From: Bacillota bacterium
GTDB lineage: Bacteria; Bacillota_I; Bacilli_A; RF39; UBA660
Length of the DNA: 53,409 nucleotides
Direction of reading: 5' to 3'
Assembly: GCA_015059285.1 (NCBI GenBank)
Contig: SVAS01000003.1
Coordinates: 66,679-120,087 of the forward strand
Made by a program: the position numbers and the translations under genes. Shown here in pieces: positions 13,866-53,409 of this stretch (the first letter of the stretch is position 1; every line of letters starts with the position of its first letter). Under the pieces are notes generated by a model. The model searched no databases, had not been told where the DNA came from, and worked only from the letters and a program-made list of their open reading frames with translations.

Positions 13866-13984
13866 CCTTATTTTCAAATAAAAAAAAAGAAAAAAACATT
13901 ATTTTATTACTTTTTTTAAAGTTATATAGGCCAAAATCTATACCCTCAATTTAGAAACACATAAACTAAAAGCAAGGAGGTAAG

Positions 13985-14422
13985 ATGATGAAAAATTATA
14001 ATCCTACACAAGACTATTACAACTATGTAAATAATACTTATAATCAACCAAGTTATAACCAAGCATCAGAACAAACAAATCTTTATAACCCTTATAATGG
14101 TTTCATTAGAGGAAATATGTTTCCTGAACTTTATAACACATATAAAGTCAACCAGCCATTTGAAATTAAACCAATGAATGAACAAGCAAATTTACTAACC
14201 TTTATTGATGCTTTAGGTTTCGCAACCATTGACTTAAATTTATATTTGGATAATTTTCCAGATGATAGAAAGGCTTTAGAACTTTTTAATCAATACCGCT
14301 TGTTAAAAGAAGAGTACATGCAAGAGTATCAAAATAAATATGGGCCAATTTCTTTAAATAGTGATTCATTAAATACTTATCCTTGGATGTGGATCAAAGG
14401 TCCATGGCCATGGGAAAAATAG
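13985..14422 (+). CDS. cotJB: Spore coat protein, CotJA-CotJB fusion
   Basis: 145 residues. Residues 1-37 are Tyr/Asn/Gln-rich. About 40-62 hold GFIRGNMFPELYNTYK, resembling the CotJA core (G-T-x-F/W-P-x-L-Y-x-P-Y). About 68-145 are CotJB-like: LLTFIDALGFATIDLNLYLDNFPDDRKAL, the QYxxLKEEYMQEYQNKYGP helix, and the characteristic W-MWIKGPWPWEK ending. In Bacillus CotJA and CotJB are separate proteins that assemble with CotJC in the inner coat. Here both seem to be in one chain. The gene lies 10 bases before cotJC with strong SD sequences (aaggagg, aggagg), so they form one operon. ATG at 13985 could also be read from the next ATG (13988), which sits better after the SD. Confidence 0.8.
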   Translation: MMKNYNPTQDYYNYVNNTYNQPSYNQASEQTNLYNPYNGFIRGNMFPELYNTYKVNQPFEIKPMNEQANLLTFIDALGFATIDLNLYLDNFPDDRKALELFNQYRLLKEEYMQEYQNKYGPISLNSDSLNTYPWMWIKGPWPWEK

Positions 14423-14432
14423 GAGGTTTATT

Positions 14433-14990
14433 ATGTGGAAATATGAAAAAAAATTAGAATATCCCGTAAACATTACTAAAAGAGATTTAAAGATGGCTAA
14501 ATATTTATTAAGCCAATATGGGGGTCCTGATTCTGAACTTGCAGCTTCTTTAAGATACTTAAACCAAAGATATACAATGCCTGATGATAAAGGAAAAGCA
14601 TTGCTTACTGATATTGCAACTGAAGAGCTTGCTCATGTTGAAATGATTTCGGCAATGATTACGCAATTAGTGGCTGGCGCAACCATTGATGAACTTGAAA
14701 AAGCAGGTCTTGGGGGTCATTTTGCACAACACGATCACGCTTTATTTCCAACTGATGCTATGGGAGTTCCTTTTACCACAGCTTACATAGAAGCAAGTGG
14801 GGATTATATTGCTGATTTAGAAAGTAATATGGCTGCAGAACAAAGAGCAAGAGCTACTTATGAACACTTAATGGATTTAACAAATGATCCCGATTTACTA
14901 GCACCACTTTCTTTTTTAAGACAAAGAGAAATTATTCACTATCAAAGATTTAAGGAATTAAGAAATTATTATCTAGAAAAGAAAATTTAA
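14433..14990 (+). CDS. cotJC: CotJC, manganese-catalase-type spore coat protein
   Basis: 185 residues, ferritin-like four-helix fold of the non-haem manganese catalase family. The metal-binding set is visible: E35, E65 and H68 (EELAHVEM), E136 (AAEQRARATYEHL) and H169 (REIIHYQRF). CotJC proteins are in the spore coat and many retain catalase activity; the intact ligand set here suggests that too. It starts ten bases after the CotJA-CotJB protein and is closed by the hairpin at 14998-15013. Confidence 0.92.
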   Translation: MWKYEKKLEYPVNITKRDLKMAKYLLSQYGGPDSELAASLRYLNQRYTMPDDKGKALLTDIATEELAHVEMISAMITQLVAGATIDELEKAGLGGHFAQHDHALFPTDAMGVPFTTAYIEASGDYIADLESNMAAEQRARATYEHLMDLTNDPDLLAPLSFLRQREIIHYQRFKELRNYYLEKKI

Positions 14991-14997
14991 TATCAAG

Positions 14998-15020
14998 CGG
15001 CTTTAAAAAGCCGTTTTTTT
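14998..15020 (+). terminator. Terminator of the cotJ operon
   Basis: Inverted repeat cggctt / aagccg around taaa, followed by seven T residues, eight bases after the cotJC stop. Confidence 0.88.
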
Positions 15021-15072
15021 TATTTATACCAATATTTTTGTGAATTAAAACGTATAAATTAATTTTTCTTAG

Positions 15073-52913: not shown

Positions 52914-53014
52914 TTCTATCACCATTATTATTATAGCAAAAATAATTAGATTATTACAATAATTAATTCATTAAATTTTCAAATCATTTTAATTATAAAA
53001 ATATACAAAAAAAA

Positions 53015-53118
53015 ATTCGCAACTACCTATTTTCGCTTACACTATCTTCGGCGTTAAAGAGCTTAACTGCTGTGTTCGGGATGGGAACAGGTGTATCCTC
53101 TTTGCTATCGTTACGAAT
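53015..53118 (-). rRNA. rrf: 5S ribosomal RNA
   Basis: Matches 5S: minus strand attcgtaacgatagcaaag, terminal stem attcgtaac with gttgcgaat (G-T allowed), and the ccgaacac... loop region (ttcgggatgggaacaggtg on the plus strand). About 104 bases, at the short end for 5S. T-run (53008-53014 on the minus strand) ends transcription. Confidence 0.92.
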
Positions 53119-53178
53119 TTAAATATAGAGAAATAATTCCCTGAAAACATGATAATGTGGAATTACATCAAATTAAAT

Positions 53179-53409
<231 letters not shown>

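Follow-up and report, generated by a model that had tools for sequence, protein, structure and literature searches.

The window analysed here, the whole 53,409-nucleotide stretch of DNA, carries a compact pair of genes that we read, at a probability of about 0.8 for anatomy and history together, as a cotJ spore-coat operon of two genes, with cotJA and cotJB joined into one. The first gene is a single open reading frame (ORF; 13985-14422) encoding a 145-residue protein, MMKNYNPTQDYYNYVNNTYNQPSYNQASEQTNLYNPYNGFIRGNMFPELYNTYKVNQPFEIKPMNEQ...PWPWEK, which contains GNMFPELYNTYK and has PWPWEK as its C-terminus. Its Shine-Dalgarno (SD) sequence, AAGGAGG, lies at 13974-13980. Four segments follow one another along the chain: a head rich in Asn, Tyr and Gln and predicted to be disordered (residues 1-30; 13985-14074), a CotJA core (residues 36-53, PYNGFIRGNMFPELYNTY; 14090-14143), a linker (residues 54-66; 14144-14182) and a CotJB domain (residues 69-144; 14189-14416). 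The second gene, cotJC (14433-14990), starts 10 bp past the stop codon of the first, which is overlapped by the cotJC SD sequence AGGAGG (14421-14426). Its 185-residue product belongs to the Mn-catalase family (Pfam PF05067, E 8.2e-57), and its nearest solved relatives by sequence match are Mn catalases, at E-values down to 2.3e-22. An intrinsic terminator with a 9-pair stem and a T run (14995-15021) closes the operon. All of these features are on the plus strand, and in the relatives cotJC adjoins nearly all of the fused loci. At its edge (53014-53409, minus strand) the window also contains a 5S rRNA gene and the 3' end of a 23S rRNA gene.

Upstream of the fused gene (13940-13967, plus strand) stands a candidate mother-cell promoter comprised of ATACC, at 13940, and CATAAACT, at 13960-13967. 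The pair aligns with the TAG.C...ACC.ATACa...CATAnaaTA pattern of the relatives, and a strict form of the motif occurs in 11 of the 24 upstream regions, where shuffled sequences give a mean of 0.12. In our judgement the element resembles promoters of the sigma-E or sigma-K type, either of which would transcribe the operon in the mother cell. The cotJ operon of Bacillus subtilis is sigma-E-dependent (PMC2648990). The upstream regions of the window's own family, f1, also share a conserved TAG.C block about 10 bases before the ATAC...CATA pair (about 13925-13967 in the window), possibly a site for a regulator or an extension of the promoter. The window's genome carries spo0A and spoIVA, and RF39, to which or to an allied order the window probably belongs, is predicted to sporulate (PMC10868615). 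Given the promoter-like element, these two genes, the sigma-E dependence in B. subtilis and the sporulation prediction, the fused product would be synthesised in the mother cell as a coat protein that acts with CotJC.

The CotJB assignment is straightforward: PF12652 matches residues 69-144 along profile positions 2-76 of 76 (E 1.5e-25; 89.6 bits against a cut-off of 29), bearing out an earlier note, made from the sequence alone, that had proposed a complete CotJB ending in PWPWEK behind a Tyr/Asn/Gln-rich head and a CotJA core. The CotJA part is more diverged. Pfam CotJA (PF11007) matches residues 31-53 over positions 13-35 of 35 with a score of 16.1 bits (E 0.011) where the cut-off is 25, so that by the Pfam rule the head counts as CotJA that is partial and diverged and falls short of full membership. 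We trained an independent CotJA hidden Markov model (HMM) on 23 stand-alone genes only, all separate from cotJB. Against this profile the head of the window protein scores 18.1 bits (E 7e-6 among 91 heads), far above its own 200 shuffles (maximum 6.3 bits) and above the 13.1 bits that was the highest score among 18,200 shuffles of all the heads. The majority of fused heads likewise beat their own shuffles with the CotJA profile; the exceptions number about a dozen, of which seven belong to family f5. The CotJA core that the earlier note had picked out is thus present, but just the C-terminal half of CotJA is kept: the profile match begins at position 14, and the YVPxQ-type N-terminal half is absent. 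Two fused relatives retain more of it: L033 of family f3, which matches positions 2-38 at 41.3 bits and so has a nearly full-length CotJA, and L086 of family f16, which matches positions 9-37 at 39.6 bits.

In the alignment of 55 fused homologues (A1), mean entropy is lowest in the core (residues 36-53), at 1.50 bits; it is 1.66 bits for residues 67-90, 2.44 for the linker and 2.59 for residues 1-30. The core is therefore under constraint. The head proper owes 17 of its 30 residues to Asn, Tyr and Gln, a proportion matched by none of 13,493 30-residue windows taken from the window's long ORFs, so that this richness is not mere AT bias. NCBIfam has no family for the fused protein.

The earlier note had said that a head failing to align to CotJA, or a separate cotJA gene, would overturn its reading; the head does align, and searches of the window's genome, a 5-contig draft of 1.04 Mb at 95.6% completeness, with PF11007, the fused protein itself and alignment A1 found no separate cotJA. 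As a control, alignment A1 does detect stand-alone CotJA in other genomes (G079 and G505). Wherever a genome of the class sample has the fused form, its CotJA matches all fall inside the fused ORF. Together with the independent profile test and the recurrence in dozens of genomes described below, this supports the fusion of CotJA and CotJB in one chain.

The fusion is a trait common to several families and not peculiar to this genome. A CotJB match is present in 90 of 296 genomes of the class; two of these were set aside, one as spurious with internal stops and one as too weak. Of the 88 classifiable CotJB-bearing genomes, assigned by reading ORFs and counted by hand, 68 have the fused form and 20 have separate genes, which answers the check for fusions in related genomes that had been proposed. 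Fused families are f1, f3, f5, f16 (which includes the Acholeplasmatales MAG L007), f18, f21 and, in five of six cases, f13; families f7 and f30, added later, are fused too. Separate cotJA and cotJB genes occur in families f8, f11 and f19, in three f13 genomes (G059, G457 and G481) and in Clostridium (L008 and L009).

Eight members of family f1 in the class sample have no CotJB match (G005, G060, G070, G116, G143, G216, G223 and G303); several are smaller than 1 Mb, and G005 retains a weak match with two stops. Loss of cotJ along with sporulation is possible in these genomes. In family f19, CotJB lies at the end of long ORFs of 286 and 259 residues in L054 (G318) and L200 (G484), respectively; the extension in L054 is rich in Cys, Gly and Asn, and its cotJA is separate. 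These ORFs may represent a further kind of extended CotJB, or the frame may simply stay open ahead of the true start.

The distribution fits a single joining event in the class. On a tree built from CotJB and CotJC without the CotJA columns, the fused label requires one change (85 rows, SH-aLRT 94), where shuffled labels average 20. When Clostridia-side rows are included, for 114 in all, the main fused group still comes out as a single clade of 50 rows (SH-aLRT 98). Both trees come from rapid searches with short proteins and carry SH-aLRT values of 94-98% but no bootstrap, and the branch order inside the fused clade is unreliable. At least two Clostridia-side genomes also have a CotJA-CotJB fusion, L212 (G584) and L228 (G576). 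Their full-length CotJA, different linkers and placement outside the main fused clade suggest separate origins; an approximately unbiased (AU) test that included them does not reject a single origin of the fusions (p 0.457), and we therefore do not claim independence. A third Clostridia-side candidate, G530, was discarded when its CotJA was found in another ORF (L235). The separate cotJA and cotJB of the three f13 genomes (L080, L194 and L195) are of a type that groups inside f19, which is most simply explained by gene replacement, with the operon exchanged through gene transfer.

We infer that cotJA and cotJB were joined in an ancestor of the reduced-genome lineages, that the N-terminal half of CotJA would then have eroded in the window's family, and that the disordered Asn/Tyr-rich head would have taken its place. 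Erosion after fusion is a natural reading, since family f3 is fused and yet retains the nearly full-length CotJA of L033.

Comparison with known systems marks the locus as a variant of a familiar operon. The cotJABC operon of B. subtilis, a sigma-E-controlled operon of the inner spore coat, shares with it the gene order A-B-C, the CotJB domain, a CotJC of the Mn-catalase family and, as a candidate element in the window, a mother-cell-type promoter. In the window, by contrast, a single chain holds both CotJA and CotJB, with the N-terminal half of CotJA gone and the Asn/Tyr/Gln-rich head added. The cotJA, cotJB, cotJC clusters of Clostridium (L008 and L009; PMC7476324) have the same three modules in the same order, but as three separate genes and with a full-length CotJA that includes a YIIPQKY-type N-terminal half. 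The Clostridia-side fusions L212 and L228 resemble the window in carrying CotJA and CotJB in one ORF, and differ from it in CotJA length, linker and position on the tree. The downstream CotJC belongs to the family of the Mn catalases Alr3090/KatB (4r42) and 1jku; at 185 residues it is shorter than these (236-302 residues) and is, by family, a putative catalase. We found no account of a CotJA-CotJB fusion in open-access papers, and a comparative study of these orders, in the part available to us, names cotJB alone (PMC10868615). Because the joined gene recurs across a whole bacterial group, we take the fusion as a real, if modest, variant of the known cotJ coat operon.

A predicted model of the fused protein (mean pLDDT 77.7, pTM 0.68) has a disordered stretch at residues 1-29 (pLDDT below 50), a CotJA core of fair confidence, with pLDDT values in the 80s, that includes a short helix (residues 36-42), and a CotJB domain folded as a helical hairpin (residues 66-90 and 95-119). 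A fold search of the model against the PDB gave no significant match (best E 2.1), and a sequence search of the protein against the PDB gave none. In B. subtilis, CotJC assembly depends on CotJA, and CotJA and CotJC interact. By analogy, the CotJA and CotJB modules would form a preset 1:1 unit that docks CotJC into the inner coat, and the flexible head would be available for coat contacts or cross-links. The fixed stoichiometry supposed in the earlier note, which would be 1:1, is plausible; the docking and stoichiometry steps, taken by themselves, we rate at somewhat below even odds.

The join may equally have been a neutral by-product of genome reduction, in which two neighbouring, co-translated genes lost the stop codon that separated them, with no functional consequence. 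We give this reading just short of an even chance. The genome is reduced, and at least two fusions exist on the Clostridia side. Many Clostridia have both genes in one frame with a single stop between them, so that one mutation can join them; that sample was picked by a model favouring the same-frame arrangement, and for this reason the count is not used as evidence of frequency. Since CotJA and CotJB already work as partners, such a join could pass without consequence. Against neutrality, several families keep the join in all of their CotJB-bearing genomes that were examined. In addition, no segment is better conserved than the CotJA core, which shows that the core is needed but does not show the same for the join. 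Neutral loss of the stop codon accounts for the fusion about as well as a functional 1:1 supply does, and the two are not exclusive, since the anatomy described above holds under either. A more ambitious proposal is an old change in coat design, whereby a one-chain CotJA-CotJB adaptor with a disordered Tyr/Asn-rich head would anchor and cross-link a CotJC layer of catalase type and take over part of the role of larger coat machinery absent from reduced-genome Bacilli. We consider this unlikely.

The remaining alternatives fare worse. A start codon in the linker could give free CotJB beside the fusion, and an in-frame ATG does lie there, at 14174 (residue 64). It is the best in-frame start of the linker and has a 3-base SD match. 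Across the fused genes, SD matches of at least 5 bases precede 92% of gene starts, as they do 90% of separate cotJB starts, but occur in 7% of fused linkers; moreover, Met 64 is not conserved (entropy 3.2 bits). The SD figures make free CotJB from the same message very unlikely, and we reject an internal translation start on that evidence. It is less credible still that the protein is CotJB with an unrelated low-complexity extension whose resemblance to CotJA is due to chance. The sub-threshold Pfam match would allow this, but the stand-alone profile score relative to shuffles rules it out, and the location of the head immediately before CotJB, matching the operon order, the intermediate forms L033 and L086 and the conserved core all speak against it. 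Finally, although the genome is a five-contig draft, an assembly or sequencing error is ruled out by recurrence, the identical join being seen in 68 of the class-sample genomes, one of them (G050) a single-contig assembly.

The two-gene cotJ operon, with cotJA and cotJB as one gene, explains why annotation pipelines would list cotJA as missing in small-genome Bacilli. The fusion is a shared marker in these mostly uncultured bacteria, for which spore formation is predicted, and it offers a compact two-component system, CotJAB plus CotJC, for biochemistry. A natural fusion kept for so long also argues for CotJA and CotJB working together in close proximity, an aspect of the coat that is poorly characterised in Bacillus.
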